A DNA stretch of 64,000 nucleotides from Candidatus Nitrospira nitrosa (GTDB lineage: Bacteria > Nitrospirota > Nitrospiria > Nitrospirales > Nitrospiraceae). The translations under genes and the position numbers were made by a program. The first letter of the stretch is position 1. Each line of letters opens with the position of its first letter. The stretch lies in the NCBI RefSeq assembly GCF_001458735.1, contig NZ_CZQA01000001.1, positions 1,674,001-1,738,000 of the forward strand, in the 5' to 3' direction. Below the pieces are notes generated by a model. The model did not search any database. It saw only the letters and a program-made list of their open reading frames with translations, and was not told where the DNA came from. Shown piece by piece: positions 12,175 to 21,725 of this stretch.

Positions 12175-12504
12175 ATGTCGCTTCCTAGCTCAATCGGGCT
12201 TTTTATCCTGGCCGGTTTGTGTGAAATCGGTGGCGGGTATTTGATATGGCTTGCGATCAGGGAAAACCAACATTGGTTGTATGCTGCAGCGGGCGCGTTG
12301 GTACTGAGTCTGTATGGAATTATTCCCACCCTGCAGCCGGCTCACTTCAGCCGTGTTTATGCGGCATATGGCGGCATGTTTATCGTGCTGTCCTTACTCT
12401 GGGGATGGGGCATCGACGGAGTTCGGCCGGATCGTTATGATGCGGTAGGGGCTCTGCTCTGTTTGGTCGGCATGATCGTCATGATGTACGCTCCTCGGAC
12501 ATGA
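12175..12504 (+). CDS. ynfA: YnfA (UPF0060) family small membrane protein
   Basis: A 109-aa protein with four hydrophobic segments. The family block GLCEIGGGYLIWLAIRE is at the N-terminus, PTLQPAHFSRVYAAYGGMFI in the middle and RYDAVGALLCLVGMIVMMYAPR at the end. I start at ATG 12175 because AAGGAGGT (12163-12170) is 4 nt upstream; the frame opens earlier at 12154. YnfA resembles small multidrug-resistance transporters and often travels with metal or drug efflux genes. It follows the RND pump by about 55 nt on the same strand and may be the last gene of that operon. Confidence 0.92.
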   Translation: MSLPSSIGLFILAGLCEIGGGYLIWLAIRENQHWLYAAAGALVLSLYGIIPTLQPAHFSRVYAAYGGMFIVLSLLWGWGIDGVRPDRYDAVGALLCLVGMIVMMYAPRT

Positions 12505-14326: not shown

Positions 14327-15742
14327 GTGCAAAGAAGCCTAGGAAGTGTCGTGCAGGGTGTGGCCTGCGGAATCTTTGTTGGTCTGGTGGTTCCTGGTTT
14401 AGGACTGGCCGGGACGCAACAGATCCCTCCAGCAACCGGTCACGATTTGCAGGGGCAGGTCAAGGCGACCGCCAATAAAGTGATTCCGGCGGTGGTCAGC
14501 ATTGCGTCCACGGTCATGGTGCGTGATCAGTCGTTCAGCGACGAAGCCTTGCCGTTCGGTCTGTTTAAGGAGCCACCCGCCCGCCGGCAGTACGGGCAAG
14601 GGTCCGGTGTGATCGTGACGCCGGATGGCTATATTGTGACCAACAATCATGTCGTGGCTGACGCCGTCGATGTTGAAGTGATTTTAGCGGATCGTCGCCA
14701 ATACAAGGGGAAGGTGGTGGCGACGGACCCTAAGACCGATGTGGCGGTGGTGAAGATCCATGCGTCGAATCTTCCAACCGCGGCCTGGGGGGATTCGAGC
14801 CAACTGGCTGTCGGCGACTTTGTGCTCGCGATCGGGAACCCCTTGGGATTGAGCCGTACCGTCACGTTCGGCATTGTGAGTGCGGTCGGGCGGGCCGATG
14901 TTGGCGTGGCGGATTTTGAAGACTTCATCCAGACGGATGCGCCGATCAACCCGGGCAATTCCGGGGGAGCTCTGGTCAATACAAATGGTGAGTTGGTCGG
15001 CATCAATACGGCGATCGCCAGCCCCACCGGTGGCAGTGTGGGCGTCGGGTTTGCCATTCCCAGCAACATGGCCCGTGCCGCCATGCAGAGCCTCATCAAG
15101 ACGGGCCGCGTGGTGCGCGGTTTTCTGGGCGCGTCGACGCAGGATGTCAGCTCCCCTTTAGGAAAGATCTTTCGCCTCCCGGACGTCAAGGGCGCAATCG
15201 TGACGGACGTGCATGCCAAGGGATCCGCTGAACGGGCCGGCTTGAAACGCGGCGATGTCGTGGTGCGTTTCGATGGGCGGGAGATTATGGACAGCGGCCA
15301 ATTACGCAACCTGGTGGCGCAAGCGCCGATCGGGAGTAAACATCGTGTGGATCTCATTCGAGACGGCAAGCAATACCAGGCCGATCTGGTTATTCAGGAA
15401 GCGCCGCGTGAACGGCCGAAGAAAAGTCAGGCGGCCTCCTCAACCGCCTCGACCGTGCATCCGTTGGCGGGCGTGGTCTTCGACGATGTGACGCCTCCCT
15501 TGGCCCGGCAGATGGATTTGCCGGTGAGCAGCGGCGTGGTTGTGACAGATATTGAAGAAGGCAGTCTTGCCGAAGCCTCCGGTTTGCAACCGGGTGATGT
15601 CGTCCTGGAACTAAACCGACAGCACATCAACAGTTTTGCGATTCTCCAACGTCTTGCCGAACCCATCAAGCCAACCGATCTTGCTCTCTTGCTCGTGAAT
15701 CGCCAGGGGAATGTCATGTACGTTCCGATTCAGGGAGAGTAG
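14327..15742 (+). CDS. degP: Do/HtrA family periplasmic serine protease with two PDZ domains
   Basis: Periplasmic protein-quality-control protease of 471 aa, starting at GTG 14327 with AGAAGG 7 nt upstream. A signal peptide (about 1-30) leads into the trypsin-like domain with triad His108 (VTNNHVV), Asp138 (DPKTDVAVVKI) and Ser212 (NPGNSGGAL). PDZ1 spans roughly 265-360 (GAIVTDVHAKGSAERAGLKR) and PDZ2 roughly 380-465 (SGVVVTDIEEGSLAEASGLQ). The architecture fits DegP/DegQ/MucD; paralogues cannot be separated by eye, so the symbol is approximate. It appears to be a single-gene unit. Confidence 0.93.
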   Translation: MQRSLGSVVQGVACGIFVGLVVPGLGLAGTQQIPPATGHDLQGQVKATANKVIPAVVSIASTVMVRDQSFSDEALPFGLFKEPPARRQYGQGSGVIVTPDGYIVTNNHVVADAVDVEVILADRRQYKGKVVATDPKTDVAVVKIHASNLPTAAWGDSSQLAVGDFVLAIGNPLGLSRTVTFGIVSAVGRADVGVADFEDFIQTDAPINPGNSGGALVNTNGELVGINTAIASPTGGSVGVGFAIPSNMARAAMQSLIKTGRVVRGFLGASTQDVSSPLGKIFRLPDVKGAIVTDVHAKGSAERAGLKRGDVVVRFDGREIMDSGQLRNLVAQAPIGSKHRVDLIRDGKQYQADLVIQEAPRERPKKSQAASSTASTVHPLAGVVFDDVTPPLARQMDLPVSSGVVVTDIEEGSLAEASGLQPGDVVLELNRQHINSFAILQRLAEPIKPTDLALLLVNRQGNVMYVPIQGE

Positions 15743-15870
15743 GGATCGAGACGGCTTCTGCCAGCAAGACAGAGGCCGCGAGATTTGAAGCCCCGACAGG
15801 GTCAGAGTCTATGGGTCACAATAGTTCCTCATCGTTTCAATCTTAATCAGTTACAGAGGAGGCAGAGAAA

Positions 15871-15890
15871 GATAAAGATAAAGATAAAGA
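15871..15890 (+). repeat. Short GATAAA tandem repeat
   Basis: Three GATAAA units and a partial fourth stand in the gap between the protease gene and the convergent membrane-protein gene. This is a simple-sequence tract in non-coding DNA; no function is evident. Confidence 0.6.
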
Positions 15891-15945
15891 CCTGGTGATA
15901 CCAGGCTGGACAGGATAGTTCTGCCACAGTTGAGCAGCACTACAA

Positions 15946-16878
15946 TTAGGGGAGACGCACGCCGTTCCTCCTTAGGAATCGACGGAGGATCCTGTAACAA
16001 TACGGTAAGAGTATTGAAAGACCGAGAAAAGATAAGATTCCATTACGAGTTTTGGTTATTTCTTCATAGCGCCTAATTTCGTCCCCTATCAAGAAAACTC
16101 CAGGTGGCCATAAATGATCTATAAGGCTGTCCGAAAATATGCTCGACACTACAAACGTGGTAGAGCCGATGAGAAGAAGTGTACTGAAAAGGTACGTGTC
16201 GTGGACAATGAAGCGGCTAAAAGTGAGTGGCTGGGTCGCGGGGTTTCTTTTGCTCCAAGAATTGCGGTACTGCCAATAAAGAAGAAGCCCAATAACTGTA
16301 ACGGCAGTGCAAGCTGTAAAAAATGAAACAATTACCTGCCATGCCCAACGCGGTAATCCGTAGTTGATGAGCATGCTTTCCATATGCTTTGTAATGTCTG
16401 CCTGGGTGAGATAGACCCAGTCACGGCTATTGCCTGATATGGCATATGCAAGGCCTTCATCAAAAGCCCTTGTCGAAAATTCAAGCTCGATTCTTGGACC
16501 ACCGTAATGCGGCGAGCATTCGATGGAATTCAATTTCATCGAAATATAGACAATGGTCTGCGGACCTCTGTTCATTTCGCTCAGAATTGGTTCAAGGTCC
16601 TCGGTTTCATAAGAGGTGTTATCTGAAAATTTTGCCTGATACAGAACCCTTTTATTCTGGCATGTTTCCGATCCTCTCTTTTCAATAAGTTCTCTGAGTT
16701 TCCTTATGCTCTTCTCATCTGCGAGAAACGGCTGCTTGATCCGGTTCGACACCGAAATTTGCAATGTGGAGGGCTTAGGCTCTTCGGCTAGAATTTCAGA
16801 ATGGCTTAATCCCAGTATCAGTATTGGGATTAGCAGTCGTATGAATATGACTGAAGTCATTTGATGAGGGAGAATCAT
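15946..16878 (-). CDS. Membrane protein of unknown function
   Basis: Not recognised. From ATG 16878 (GGGAGA 9 nt upstream on the minus strand) the product is 310 aa; the frame extends to a GTG at 16911. A signal-like helix (VIFIRLLIPILILGL) is followed by an extracytoplasmic domain of about 150 aa with three Cys, then three transmembrane helices in the C-terminal half and a strongly basic tail (RILRRFLRRNGVRLP). It looks less GC-rich than neighbouring genes and has no same-strand partner, so it may be a recent acquisition. Confidence 0.6.
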   Translation of the reverse strand: MILPHQMTSVIFIRLLIPILILGLSHSEILAEEPKPSTLQISVSNRIKQPFLADEKSIRKLRELIEKRGSETCQNKRVLYQAKFSDNTSYETEDLEPILSEMNRGPQTIVYISMKLNSIECSPHYGGPRIELEFSTRAFDEGLAYAISGNSRDWVYLTQADITKHMESMLINYGLPRWAWQVIVSFFTACTAVTVIGLLLYWQYRNSWSKRNPATQPLTFSRFIVHDTYLFSTLLLIGSTTFVVSSIFSDSLIDHLWPPGVFLIGDEIRRYEEITKTRNGILSFLGLSILLPYCYRILRRFLRRNGVRLP

Positions 16879-17172
16879 ATACCAGATTTCTCCCGCAAGG
16901 AAACTCTGCACTCAGAAGGTAGAGTTGCAGATTCGCAGCTTCTGCTGGTCTGATGGAAATATCAATTGCTTTACCTTGCACGACAAGCATTTGGTTTTTC
17001 CCGATTGAACCTGCTGCAATGGCTGAGGATCGAGGGGGGTGTTAGGTGAATCACGCGAGTGCGGTTGCGACTACCGCCAGCCTGGCGAGACCCGATCGGT
17101 TGTTTAAGGAGCTGTGGCGGAATCTTACGCAGAAAGTATGTCTGAAGCTCACATAGCAAAGGATAGAGTTGT

Positions 17173-17901
17173 ATGAGCGTGTCGACACAAGAGGTTGCCG
17201 TTATCGCCGGTGTGGGGCCTGGATTGGGTGCGTCTTTGGCGCGCAAGTTTGCCCGTGAAGGCTGCGCCATCGCGCTGTTGGCCCGTTCGGCTGATTTTTT
17301 GAACCGCCTGGCAGAGGAACTGCGTCAGTCTGGGGCGCGCGTGCTTCCAGTGTCGGCGGATCTGACGGATGCCGAAGCCGTGGCCAAGGCGTTTGCTCTG
17401 GTGCGTAGCAAGCTTGGGCCTGTCTCCATCCTGATCAATCATGTGGGCAGCGGAGTGTGGGGCGGGTTCAATGAGTTAACGGCGGAGGGGTTCAGGTCCA
17501 CGTGGGAACGATGCGCTCTGGCAGCCTTTCTCTGTTGCAAACAGGTCGTGCCCGATATGATTGCTCGCAGCGGTGGAAGCATTCTGTTTACGGGAGCTAC
17601 GTCATCCATCCGGGGGCGGAACGGTGCGCCTGCCTTTAGTAGCGCCAAGTTCGCCGTCCGCGGGTTGGCCGATTCCCTTGCGCGGGAGTTATGGCCGCAG
17701 GGTATCCATGTCGCACACATCCTTGTGGATGGGGTGATCGATACGGCTGCCGTGAGAGCCGAGCTGGCTGCTGGAACCAGCGAACCATTGCTGAATCCGG
17801 AGGACATGGCCGAGACCTATTGGGCGTTGACCAGGCAGAAGCCCGGCGCCTGGACCTTCGAGTTGGAATTGCGACCGCCAGGCGAGGCCTTTTTCGTGTA
17901 G
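17173..17901 (+). CDS. Atypical short-chain dehydrogenase/reductase (SDR) without catalytic Tyr
   Basis: A 242-aa Rossmann-fold protein. The N-terminal nucleotide-binding motif reads AGVGPGLGASLARKFAREG, and an Asp after strand 3 (SADLTDAE) follows the SDR plan. The usual YxxxK active site is replaced by FSSAK: the Lys is present but Tyr is Phe. The SDR_c10-like subgroup, which has the block ELWPQGIHVAHILVDGVIDT, is known to lack the normal tetrad. The protein may therefore bind NAD(P)H and a ligand without classical dehydrogenase chemistry. A purine-rich AAAGGA lies about 10 nt before the ATG. It appears monocistronic. Confidence 0.88.
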   Translation: MSVSTQEVAVIAGVGPGLGASLARKFAREGCAIALLARSADFLNRLAEELRQSGARVLPVSADLTDAEAVAKAFALVRSKLGPVSILINHVGSGVWGGFNELTAEGFRSTWERCALAAFLCCKQVVPDMIARSGGSILFTGATSSIRGRNGAPAFSSAKFAVRGLADSLARELWPQGIHVAHILVDGVIDTAAVRAELAAGTSEPLLNPEDMAETYWALTRQKPGAWTFELELRPPGEAFFV

Positions 17902-17985: not shown

Positions 17986-18103
17986 TCATATCGGGAATAG
18001 CTGAAGATCGAACACCCGTTCGGTGAACCAGACAAGTGCGATGGCAATCACAGCCAGTGAGCCGCCGGTGAGGACTAATCTTGGGTACGACCCAAAACGG
18101 ACA
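17986..18103 (-). pseudogene. Orphan 3' end of a hupE-like gene
   Basis: Read on the minus strand this encodes an intact C-terminal tail, SYPRLVLTGGSLAVIAIALV followed by WFTERVFDLQLFPI and a TGA at 17986-17988. The functional hupE-like gene at 19411-20532 ends with almost the same residues (SYPRLVLTGGSIAVIAIALV, WFTERAFDLQLFPV). DNA differences are mainly synonymous, so the two copies diverged as functional genes before this one was cut. Upstream homology fades near 18103-18115. The pair brackets the XRE/Fic module. Confidence 0.85.
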
Positions 18104-18115
18104 GACGGTTATTGT

Positions 18116-18307
18116 GACGTAGGTCCTTAATCGGACTATTTTTTCTGGCCTCTATTGGTAAGCCCTGCCGAGCTAATATTAATTAGTGCAGTTAAATCAT
18201 ATAGTTATTTAAATTTAATACTGAAAGAAATAAATTAAATGACATATTAATACTGTGAGCGGTATATTTATGCATATATTGAGATTGTAAATAGTATAAT
18301 TATTTCC
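18116..18307. promoter_or_regulatory. AT-rich region upstream of the XRE/Fic module
   Basis: This stretch is far more AT-rich than the rest of the window (for example around 18170-18300). It starts near a weak hairpin with a T-run (GTCC...GGAC, then TATTTTTT, at about 18122-18142) and ends at the ATG of the XRE gene. It probably contains the promoter and operator autoregulated by that protein. No clean -35/-10 pair or palindrome can be assigned. Confidence 0.5.
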
Positions 18308-18766
18308 ATGAAACACAAATTCATAACTGTGCTTGATGACATCACGCTATCAGGGCTAACGGTGTGGTCATCTAGAAACAAAAGCAAACTCATCGTGGGG
18401 GACTGGATACGCTTGCTCCGAAATCGGCTACGAATGACACAGGCTGAACTCGCTCACCGCGCCCATATTACGCAGCCGAACCTCGCCGCGATTGAGTCTG
18501 GAAAAGTTGATCCTCAAGTAGGGACACTCCGCCGAATTTATGAAGGCTTAGGCTGTGAGCTCAACCTCGAACCTCTACTGCACAAGCCACTGGAAGAACT
18601 CGTCAGAGATCGTGCCCGAGCTGTGGCCCTCACACGACTGAAACAGACGATGGGAACCATGGCACTTGAAGACCAAGCTCCTGACAAAGACACATTCAGG
18701 CAGCTTCTTGAAAAACGTACCGACGATCTCCTCCGCAGTCCTCGTAAACGACTACCCACTCGATGA
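18308..18766 (+). CDS. XRE-family regulator, 'mobile mystery protein A'
   Basis: A 152-aa protein with a central XRE helix-turn-helix at about residues 37-95: IRLLRNRLRMTQAELAHRAH, then ITQPNLAAIESGKVDPQVGT. The C-terminal half is helical and charged. The 'mobile mystery' A family is always paired with protein B, a Fic-domain protein, in scattered mobile contexts. Here the TGA overlaps the ATG of the Fic gene (ATGA), as in toxin-antitoxin pairs. It likely represses its own AT-rich promoter and neutralises or controls B; that role is inferred from gene organisation. Confidence 0.88.
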   Translation: MKHKFITVLDDITLSGLTVWSSRNKSKLIVGDWIRLLRNRLRMTQAELAHRAHITQPNLAAIESGKVDPQVGTLRRIYEGLGCELNLEPLLHKPLEELVRDRARAVALTRLKQTMGTMALEDQAPDKDTFRQLLEKRTDDLLRSPRKRLPTR

Positions 18767-19386
18767 CCATAGCGGACGAAATACAGCCCGAGGGGGAAAC
18801 TTCGGGTGATGACATCTCAGGGCTCATTCTTGTTCAGCTCAAGACAAGAGCGGAACGAAATGTGGCCGAAGCACAGGCCATTAGTTTGGCCTATGACAAA
18901 TACATCTTTGAAGCCCGCAGGAAGAAACAGGGCGCACGATGGCTCACCGATAAGTGCATCCGCGCAGTCCATCAAGACATGTTGGGAGCAATATGGGATT
19001 GGGCCGGGAACTACAGGACGGAAAACCTCAATATCGGTATGGACTGGCGCCACATACCGGAACAGGTTCGCTTGTTATGCGATGATTTTCTCCACTGGGA
19101 CTCTGCAACGTCAACGATGCCGATTTTAGAAGTCGCCGCACGGCTTCAGAATCGGCTGACGAAGATTCATCCCTTCAGAAATGGGAATGGAAGACATGCA
19201 CGATTGATCACCGATATCTTCTTTCATTCCCGTCGACATCCCTTGCCGGAATGGCCCCAAACCCACCTGATGTCTGAAGGCCATCAAATCCGAGCGCAGT
19301 ACGTCGCCGCCATGCGGGACGCCGATCAAGGCGACTTCTCCTCGTTGGTGAAATTCTTTGAATATTGCCTGCCCAGCTGTTCCTGA
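18763..19386 (+). CDS. Fic-domain protein, 'mobile mystery protein B'
   Basis: A 207-aa Fic protein. The catalytic loop HPFRNGNGRHAR (about residues 136-147) matches HxFx(D/N)GNGRxxR exactly, with catalytic His136, so it should transfer AMP or another nucleotide-derived moiety to a target protein. The upstream helix WDWAGNYRTENLNIG is also family-typical. I see no (S/T)xxxE(G/N) inhibitory motif inside this protein. Its start overlaps the stop of the XRE gene by 4 nt. It ends 25 nt before the stop of the convergent hupE-like gene. Confidence 0.9.
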   Translation: MTIADEIQPEGETSGDDISGLILVQLKTRAERNVAEAQAISLAYDKYIFEARRKKQGARWLTDKCIRAVHQDMLGAIWDWAGNYRTENLNIGMDWRHIPEQVRLLCDDFLHWDSATSTMPILEVAARLQNRLTKIHPFRNGNGRHARLITDIFFHSRRHPLPEWPQTHLMSEGHQIRAQYVAAMRDADQGDFSSLVKFFEYCLPSCS

Positions 19387-19410
19387 TAAGTGCGAATCGT
19401 CATTAATCCG

Positions 19411-20532
19411 CTACACAGGAAACAGCTGAAGATCAAATGCCCGTTCGGTGAACCACACGAGCGCAATGGCGATCACGGCTATCGATCCTCCAGTGAGGAC
19501 CAATCGCGGGTATGACCATGAGCGGCGGATTACATAGGCGAGGGGTAAGAAGGCGGCGACGATGGCGAGCTGGCCGATTTCCACGCCGACGTTAAAACTG
19601 ACCAGACTCAGTAACAGCGAATCGTGAGGCAGCCCGAGATCGGTGAGCACGGCGGCGAAGCCGAATCCATGAATCAGGCCGAATCCAAATGCTACGATCC
19701 AGCGGCGACTTGCCATCATTGGGTACAAATTACCAAGCCCGGCCAGCACGACCGAAGCTGCGATAGTCGATTCCACTAATCGCGACGGAAAGCGAACGAC
19801 ATTCAGCGTGGCCAGGCTCAATGTCAGCGAATGGGCCAGGGTAAAGGCCGTGACGATGCTGACAACATTGCCGCAGACTCCTTGAAACTCGCCGGCCGCT
19901 TGCCAACGACCTTCCGAACGAACCAATACTGCCGGCAATAACAGAGCGAGTAAGAACAGCACATGGTCGAATCCCAGCCAGATATGCCAGATGCCTTCGT
20001 GAATGAATTGGCGGCTTTCATCCCAGCGTGATCGTTCGGCGATCGAAAATGTTTGGAGCGGAGTTTCTCGGCTGAAGATGGCGGTGCTGGTTTGTCCGCC
20101 TTGTACCAGGCGTAAGAGCCCCTTGTGTTGCGCATCAATATCAAAGAGCAGTCGGTAATCCGCATGGAGCCGTTGGATTCTCTGGCCACAATCGGCATGA
20201 AAGCGCAGAACCGAATAGGCTCCATCCGTATGAGAGTCGATGAGTTGTTCCAGAATCTCAGTTGAGCACGTTCCGATATCAGTGGACAGCGTAAGGCGAG
20301 AGGTGGCGTACGCGCTGATTTCGTCATGCTTGCTTCGGACTTCTCTCCACGTAATCTGTCCATCTCCATCACTATCTAATCCAATCGCATTATCGAGATC
20401 ACGTAGCGCGATGTCCCACTGGCCGACAATCTGCTCATGCTGAACAGACAGTGAGAGATAGCTGTCACTGGGCTTATGGGCCCAAACGGGGACCGTCAGG
20501 AGAAGCCATGCCAAAACAAGAAGGATGCGCAT
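19411..20532 (-). CDS. HupE/UreJ-family membrane protein with N-terminal EF-hand
   Basis: A 373-aa protein from ATG 20532 (AGGAGG about 10 nt upstream); start and upstream stop overlap as TGATG. A signal peptide ending VPVWAHKPSD exposes an N-terminal extracytoplasmic domain with an EF-hand-like loop (DSDGDGQITWREV, about residues 45-57). The C-terminal ~190 residues are the HupE/UreJ-type membrane domain with about six helices and conserved His (HIWLGFDHVLF, GLIHGFGFAAVL). This family is linked to metal (nickel/cobalt-type) handling, but the substrate of this branch is not established. It is the last gene of the lipoprotein-DUF4331-TPR-hupE unit. Confidence 0.85.
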   Translation of the reverse strand: MRILLVLAWLLLTVPVWAHKPSDSYLSLSVQHEQIVGQWDIALRDLDNAIGLDSDGDGQITWREVRSKHDEISAYATSRLTLSTDIGTCSTEILEQLIDSHTDGAYSVLRFHADCGQRIQRLHADYRLLFDIDAQHKGLLRLVQGGQTSTAIFSRETPLQTFSIAERSRWDESRQFIHEGIWHIWLGFDHVLFLLALLLPAVLVRSEGRWQAAGEFQGVCGNVVSIVTAFTLAHSLTLSLATLNVVRFPSRLVESTIAASVVLAGLGNLYPMMASRRWIVAFGFGLIHGFGFAAVLTDLGLPHDSLLLSLVSFNVGVEIGQLAIVAAFLPLAYVIRRSWSYPRLVLTGGSIAVIAIALVWFTERAFDLQLFPV

Positions 20533-21725
20533 CAGAGTGGTACCTCCTGAATTTGTTTTGCGAGTTGTTGCAACCGAAAGTCTTCCACGTGGTTGGTCTT
20601 TAACCAATCAATTATAGGCTGGGCCGCTGATCGCCTTCTGTCGGCTAATGCACATTCGAGGAGGATCCTGGCGTCGGCTGGTTCGCGTTGCACATTCCAA
20701 TTAGCTTGGGCCAGGGGCAGCGCCTTCTTAGCATCCTTGAGCAACGCTAACGTGAAGCGTGCTTCTTCTCGGACATGGACCGAAGTACCCCGCTCCCGAC
20801 TGGCGGCAAAGCGGGCGGCAAGTTCAGAGACATGGCTCTTGGATGAGGATATATCCAGTGTCTGTTCTGCGAGCGTGAGGCGGAGCAGGAGTCCATCGGC
20901 TCTTGTCTCCGAGCGGAGCAGTGAGACGACATCTTGATGACGGCCTTGATCCAGCAAAAAATCCGCATAGGCACCCAATAAATACTGATCCTTGATGCCT
21001 GACTTGAAGGCCTCTGCGAAATACTGCTCGGCGGCTCGTATCGCTCCAATGCGTGCGCTTGTCTCTGCCAGGATTGTCGTAATCCAGATCCGCTCGCGGC
21101 CGATGAGTTTTTTGTCCGCAAGCATCGGTTGAAGCAGCTCGCGGGCTTTCATTGAGTGGCCTGTGACAGCTGCAATATCACTCAAACAACCAAGTAGCAC
21201 ATGAGCAGCAGCTAACCGCGCAAGGCGCTGGCAGGCTCGGTGTGCGTCGTCGTAGTGAGCCTGGACTTGAAGGATGGCCGCTTTGGTCAGCCAGGCCTGG
21301 GCATTGGTCGGTTCTACGGCCAGCACCTGATCGAGATCAGCCAAAGCTTGATCGAATTCATGGGCATTCTGCCTGATCGTCGCCCGTAACAGGAGTATCT
21401 CCGGTGGTGGAGTCGCCTCGTTCCACCAGGGACTGAGAACGGCCTGTGCTTGTCCAATGAACCGGGGATCGCCTTCTGATCGGGCTTGTTCGATGTAGCG
21501 AGCGGCCAGTTTTGCAGCAGACTCAAAGTTGCGAGGATTTTGCCGTACCTTCGTACGTAACGTGGCAAGCTCCCGCGAGACTGGATCAGATCCCTTGAAA
21601 CTGAGTCGTTCGAGGACCTGTGCATCGTCCATGGGGAGATAGGGTTCAGGGTAAGCGGGGTGAATCCGAATCATCGTCACCCACCCGAATAGGATAAGCA
21701 TCAGAAACAATGGGAGTCGAACCAT
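20532..21725 (-). CDS. TPR-repeat protein, membrane-anchored
   Basis: A 397-aa product from ATG 21725 (MVRLPLFLMLILFGWVTMI, a signal anchor); the frame is open to 21839 but without a signal. The rest is helical, with several tetratricopeptide units, for example EFDQALADLDQVLAVEPTNA followed by QAWLTKAAILQVQAHYDDA. It probably acts as a periplasmic scaffold for assembly or interaction. Coupled to hupE by the TGATG overlap and preceded by the DUF4331 gene; a TPR protein beside DUF4331 and HupE suggests a shared cell-envelope function. Confidence 0.82.
   Translation of the reverse strand: MVRLPLFLMLILFGWVTMIRIHPAYPEPYLPMDDAQVLERLSFKGSDPVSRELATLRTKVRQNPRNFESAAKLAARYIEQARSEGDPRFIGQAQAVLSPWWNEATPPPEILLLRATIRQNAHEFDQALADLDQVLAVEPTNAQAWLTKAAILQVQAHYDDAHRACQRLARLAAAHVLLGCLSDIAAVTGHSMKARELLQPMLADKKLIGRERIWITTILAETSARIGAIRAAEQYFAEAFKSGIKDQYLLGAYADFLLDQGRHQDVVSLLRSETRADGLLLRLTLAEQTLDISSSKSHVSELAARFAASRERGTSVHVREEARFTLALLKDAKKALPLAQANWNVQREPADARILLECALADRRRSAAQPIIDWLKTNHVEDFRLQQLAKQIQEVPL

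Follow-up and report, generated by a model that had tools for sequence, protein, structure and literature searches.

In the window, i.e., the whole stretch of 64,000 nt of Candidatus Nitrospira nitrosa DNA that was analysed, a gene pair for an XRE-type and a Fic-domain protein is bracketed by two diverged copies of the 3′ end of hupE, only one of which belongs to a complete gene. What kind of process leaves a gene end on both sides of a module, and does it belong to the gene pair or to the site? The preliminary description had answered in favour of an element that inserts at the 3′ end of a gene and carries its own replacement end.

Organization of the hupE region

The features of the region are given below in the direction of hupE, which is also the order in which the modules follow one another up to DegP.

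19411-20532, minus strand: hupE (HupE/UreJ_2; PF13795, 1.2e-48), with orthologues in congeners; the ORF starts with ATG at 20532, and a TTG at 20607 is also possible
19411-19526, minus strand: tail 1, the functional hupE 3′ end, which adjoins the module (profile score 108 bits)
18763-19386, plus strand: mobile mystery protein B, with a Fic domain (TIGR02613, 148.7 bits against a cut-off of 124.4; PF02661)
18308-18766, plus strand: mobile mystery protein A, the XRE-type DNA-binding partner (TIGR02612, 73.6 bits, 1.6e-20; PF01381)
18100-18307, no strand: promoter region and module-specific flank (F1), adjoining tail 2 (upstream-flank comparison)
17986-18099, minus strand: tail 2, an orphan copy of the hupE 3′ end that has a stop codon of its own (profile score 104 bits)
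17173-17901, plus strand: SDR-family oxidoreductase gene, an older module enclosed by tails 2 and 3 (PF00106; orthologue in G011)
17018-17095, minus strand: tail 3, a decayed orphan hupE 3′ end (profile and whole-genome model)
16922-16940, minus strand: conserved 19-mer R, consensus GGCTGCGAATATGCAATTC, a marker of the ancestral downstream flank
15946-16911, minus strand: gene of unknown family (cluster 30, common to G012); it lies in the second variable slot, which separates R from DegP
14327-15742, plus strand: DegP/HtrA-like protease gene, the conserved far border of the hotspot (named from the sequence, not by a family search)

The second hupE 3′ end on the far side of the XRE/Fic pair is real. 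A repeat search aligned positions 17993-18092 with 19418-19517 at 79% identity over 100 nt without gaps, and blastn gave an E value of about 1e-17. As had been described, its coding frame is intact: the translation corresponds to hupE residues 337-373 (86% identity) and ends at its own TGA (17988-17986). The differences from the consensus of the resident hupE ends are mainly synonymous, with 13, 2 and 2 of them at codon positions 3, 1 and 2, respectively. The length of 118 bp reported earlier was close, the profile match covering 17989-18099, or about 114 nt when the stop is included.

A third hupE end had been overlooked. Tail 3 (17018-17095) scored 14.9 bits with the profile, compared with 8.8 bits for the best match in 1.9 Mb of shuffled sequence; it was recovered by an independent whole-genome model search (E value 5.9e-4), and G011 also carries it at the orthologous place (L049:8108-8166). 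The SDR gene itself thus lies between two hupE ends, and its side is not the plain chromosomal side for which it had been taken. The ORFs between the tails of the window are MmsA/MmsB and SDR only, and each of these two modules, mobile mystery and SDR, is an insertion.

The bracket belongs to the hupE site and not to the mobile mystery pair

The family matches agree with the earlier reading of an XRE/Fic pair between two hupE ends. The genes are in the order A then B with a 4-nt overlap, and the stop of protein B lies 24 nt from the hupE stop (19386 to 19411); a spacing of about 24 nt to the stop of the neighbouring hupE end was observed in every tail-adjacent mobile mystery module. Protein B is above the curated TIGR02613 cut-off, and its motif HPFRNGNGR agrees with the Fic motif HPFx(D/E)GN(G/K)R except for the N at the D/E position. 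Protein A is under the TIGR02612 cut-off (122.6 bits), i.e., it is homologous but outside the strict model. Gene order, overlap and a protein B above the cut-off are as in the mobile mystery pairs of TIGR02612/TIGR02613; the differences are the low score of protein A and the hupE bracket, which members elsewhere lack. Judged by family alone, these two genes probably form a toxin-antitoxin or defence-type pair of the Fic/XRE kind, which would promote its own maintenance. The AT-richness ascribed to it holds for the promoter stretch (18160-18310), but not for the genes, which have 48-52% GC.

Protein B was found in 15 Nitrospira genomes, at the hupE site in 11 and elsewhere, without a hupE end, in four. 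In addition, no bracketing repeat was seen around three plasmid-borne mobile mystery pairs. Since mobile mystery loci elsewhere lack the bracket, it is a feature of the hupE slot rather than of the pair. The idea that mobile mystery A/B loci in general carry such a bracket was rejected on these four Nitrospira and three plasmid loci.

A probable recombination hotspot at the 3′ end of hupE in Nitrospira

We searched 79 Nitrospira genomes and compared 41 loci, i.e., the window and 40 loci from congeners. In these loci hupE and the DegP/HtrA-like gene are typically convergent neighbours with variable cargo between them. With a DNA profile built on the final 115 nt of hupE, 59 copies were detected in the 41 loci, and a genome-wide sequence model of the hupE end had matches in 54 of the 79 genomes; about two dozen of the 79 carry at least one copy that is not attached to a complete hupE. 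These orphan ends are located in the hupE-DegP interval, or in loci derived from that interval, and bracket mobile mystery A/B, a zinc-type alcohol dehydrogenase, the SDR gene and others, in modules mostly of 0.8-3.7 kb. Their upstream flanks are module-specific: F1 is common to the mobile mystery A/B modules of several species and F2 to the zinc-type alcohol dehydrogenase modules, and the flank families are mutually unrelated.

The insertion site is the 3′ end of hupE. This end is best explained as a recombination hotspot for the addition and exchange of gene modules, in which each insertion leaves another copy of the last ~115 nt of hupE, and the site is used like a swap slot. Modules accumulate at a single chromosomal position through repeated replacement of the 3′ end of a host gene, with no visible recombinase, in ecologically important nitrite oxidisers. 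In the literature covered (an incomplete set) on mobile mystery proteins, Nitrospira hotspots and hupE, such an array is not described; orphan 3′ ends of a neighbouring gene offer a simple recipe for the search of similar slots elsewhere.

The same arrangement could in principle be produced by tandem duplication of hupE, if the duplicates decayed independently of any insertion and genes landed between the copies later. Some orphans are indeed longer (67 codons in G097) or carry internal hupE parts (G012 and G085). However, a complete second hupE at this locus, which the preliminary description had named as the mark of an old tandem paralogue, was found in none of the 79 genomes, and the longest second contiguous copy was that of 67 codons in G097. 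Furthermore, module-specific junctions are common to different species, and the orphan ends keep ending at the stop codon beside a conserved flank. Decayed duplicates are thus a quite improbable origin of the array. The G097 remnant is closer to the hupE of the window than the full hupE of G097 is. In L087:9798-10976 a DUF4143/AAA ATPase gene, which matches PADLOC PDC-S01, lies between the complete hupE and this 67-codon remnant.

Orphan ends persist in genomes that lack hupE. In L177, L178, L180, L181, L183, L186 and L034, hupE was lost together with its upstream operon, and the orphan end lies beside a different gene block; in several hupE-less loci the homology starts sharply near tail column 44-55. 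Such survival, and the fact that columns 52-90 are the best kept in old orphans, would be expected if the ends were retained for a function of their own, as a terminator, an antisense or a regulatory element of the flanking module. However, detection is easiest in just this best-kept stretch, neither strand showed a conserved strong fold, and orphans carry more first- and second-position changes than residents. Several orphans, including tail 3, are badly decayed, and we give retention for function very little credence.

Empty sites and exchange of cargo

An empty site, with one hupE 3′ end joined to the SDR side, had been predicted for relatives that lack the pair, and it was found in G011 (L049). 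Here one intact hupE end is directly followed by the SDR orthologue and there is no mobile mystery pair; the SDR region is 80% identical to that of the window over 968 nt. Fully empty sites, with hupE facing DegP directly, are present in L097, L099, L100, L101 and L046. These empty sites support the earlier proposal that DNA inserted at the hupE 3′ end and brought a replacement end along. Between them, the sequenced species show every stage from empty through single and double to triple, which makes it possible to test directly in what order the events took place and whether homologous recombination or a hidden integrase was at work.

Cargo can also differ between otherwise matching sites. G027 and G059 are 91% identical in left flank and tail and have a common right flank, but one carries mobile mystery A/B and the other an unrelated 123-aa ORF. 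The 123-aa module recurs with both tails in G068 in another left context; its copies at L083:6550-7388 and L086:8035-8895 (83% identity) have different left contexts. In the mobile mystery DNA tree G027 is placed outside the group of G000, G032, G072, G006 and G097 (100/100), whereas in the DegP tree it is placed inside this group (100/99). This conflict indicates that mobile mystery A/B has moved between lineages while keeping its position.

Break points of the exchanged hupE ends

Along hupE, the identity of G031 and G018 is 98.8% up to a point 25 nt ahead of the tail; over the last ~140 nt it falls to 83%, and past the stop their sequences are unrelated, so that the hupE end and the DNA that follows were replaced together. 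This supports the suggestion that one end came from another strain. The break points in close pairs lie inside the hupE end but vary, at column −25 (G031/G018), −31 (G065/G019) and +86 (G100/G098), and a tail swap at one fixed crossover was rejected on these pairs. Between G000 and G032 the mobile mystery pair is mostly 98-100% identical, falling to 85% at the hupE stop, and hupE is a mosaic of 70-96% identity. Varying break points and mosaic identity are typical of homologous recombination.

The explanation that we favour, at about even chances, is homologous recombination inside the hupE end combined with one-sided joining. Incoming DNA from another strain would recombine by homology within the hupE end, so that hupE retains a working 3′ end, now that of the donor, and acquires the gene that lay downstream in the donor. 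At its other end the donor DNA would be joined in a homology-independent way, just inside the hupE end of the recipient, and this recipient end would become the orphan copy on the far side. Orphan ends could later serve as homology anchors, by which whole modules would move between strains and stack up. The empty sites, the G027/G059 cargo swap, the 123-aa module in different left contexts, the varying break points, the G000/G032 mosaic, the G027 tree conflict and the lack of a tyrosine recombinase in any interval all count for this explanation; homologues of comEC and dprA are present and count as weak support, because these genes are common.

Two observations at the left junctions count against it. 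Eleven of 13 junction types of the orphan ends, which were chosen by hand and are maybe not all independent, fall in two 18-nt windows (simulated p of about 0.0005), and random illegitimate joining does not predict this clustering. In addition, three unrelated module types have a short inverted repeat, TTGGG(T)nnn(A)CCCAA, at their junction; inverted repeats with arms of at least 5 bp were detected in 8 of 19 orphans, as against 1 of 34 residents, two of the eight being other nearby repeats. Non-random left junctions and the inverted repeat fit a site-specific start. An 8-bp inverted repeat around tail 2 was dropped as a candidate, as it is present only in G000 and G032.

The hupE 3′ end might then be the attachment site of a tyrosine (or other) recombinase, whose elements, each with a substitute 3′ end, decayed to integrase-less modules, accreted in tandem and were later reshuffled by homologous recombination. 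The clustered junctions, the repeated insertion at one place and the excess of inverted repeats in orphans argue for such integration, as does the extent of the homology in five unrelated junction types, which starts near codon 337 and reaches the stop codon, and precedents are described in e14/icd (PMC6379469) and in the accretion of cis-mobilizable elements (CIMEs; PMC5704250). It is harder to reconcile with the variable break points between close relatives, with orphan ends of other lengths (starting from residues 286, 307, 320 and 331) and with intact orphan tails that are only ~72-90% identical to the resident consensus. Given the outcome of the searches described below, we hold site-specific integration to be possible, although less probable than homologous recombination with one-sided joining.

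Searches for a recombinase and a carrier

No tyrosine recombinase was found in any hupE-DegP interval with 12 mutually detecting recombinase queries. Serine recombinases and transposases were judged only among the families listed for 96 cargo ORFs; in the Pfam, PADLOC and PHROG scans of these ORFs no other recombinase was present among the commonest families listed, a search in which a rare non-tyrosine type could be missed. Neither a recombinase gene nor a recognisable remnant was thus detected in the intervals, and no copy of the hupE end was found in viral contigs, phages and plasmid collections, both of which speak against site-specific integration. The dedicated inserting element of the preliminary description is hence not supported.

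The integron integrase model TIGR02249 gave a match below the cut-off in G000 and matches above it in 8 of 79 congeners. G075 and G082 have integron integrase fragments at a distance of ~5 kb from their hupE end (L099:5283-5591 and L100:12506-13242). Folding of the consensus and of eight tail copies revealed no common long hairpin, the R/L boxes having been inspected by eye only. The integron hypothesis was rejected, as G000 has no integrase above the cut-off and no attC-like fold was seen in the tail. The array is like one of integron cassettes in its single-gene modules in tandem, each with a repeat of ~115 nt and mostly in one reading direction; unlike in an integron, the repeat is the end of a protein-coding gene with no attC-type fold seen, and the modules seem to keep their own promoters. 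That the hupE 3′ end is a dedicated site at which an unrecognised Nitrospira recombinase moves single-gene cassettes in trans, i.e., an integron-like capture that uses a chromosomal coding end, seems unlikely to us.

Comparison with e14 and CIMEs

The 15-kb prophage e14 encodes its own integrase. It inserts near the 3′ end of icd in E. coli and supplies a substitute 3′ end, and the original 163-bp icd end stays on the far side (PMC6379469). The hupE modules resemble it in that they, too, have inserted close to where a protein gene ends at its 3′ side, with a substitute end and with the original end beyond; unlike e14, they are small and stacked, have several cargo types, and no recombinase was found. 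CIMEs are stretches of integrase-less DNA that are flanked by copies of an att-like gene end and lie in tandem at one target gene (PMC5704250). The hupE modules are likewise flanked by gene-end copies, arranged in tandem at one gene and devoid of detected integration or transfer genes, but there is no sign that they descend from integrative elements. When the att arrangement of CIMEs was looked for, homologous gene ends were found to bracket the module without a core of identical sequence; the junctions were variable in length, and the copies are ~72-90% identical, in contrast to the short near-identical att repeats of CIMEs. Viral, phage and plasmid collections yielded no element with the same site that might mobilise the modules in trans. 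In its logic the hupE slot is closest to e14/icd integration and to the tandem accretion of CIMEs, without a demonstrable recombinase.

The downstream flank of the hotspot

The 19-mer R has a single match in the whole genome, with 3 mismatches, 80 nt beyond tail 3. In nearly all loci that have it, single-tail loci included, it is located 20-137 nt past the last tail; it departs from this in G065, where the distance is 602 nt, and in G012, which has a second copy. Since R stays near the last tail in nearly all its loci, it marks the original downstream flank. Its core is near-palindromic (GCGAAT-N5-ATTCGC), and R could be an operator or a recombination site. The two copies in G012 (L038:8878-8896 and 12239-12257) enclose several ORFs, which gives the impression of a module that entered between 19-mers instead of hupE ends.

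Between R and DegP there is a second variable slot with changing genes (15743-16921 in the window, and in L033, L082, L083, L087, L088, L093 and L095). Its genes include putative abortive-infection proteins (PF16872, AbiP-like) in G066, with a relative in G027.
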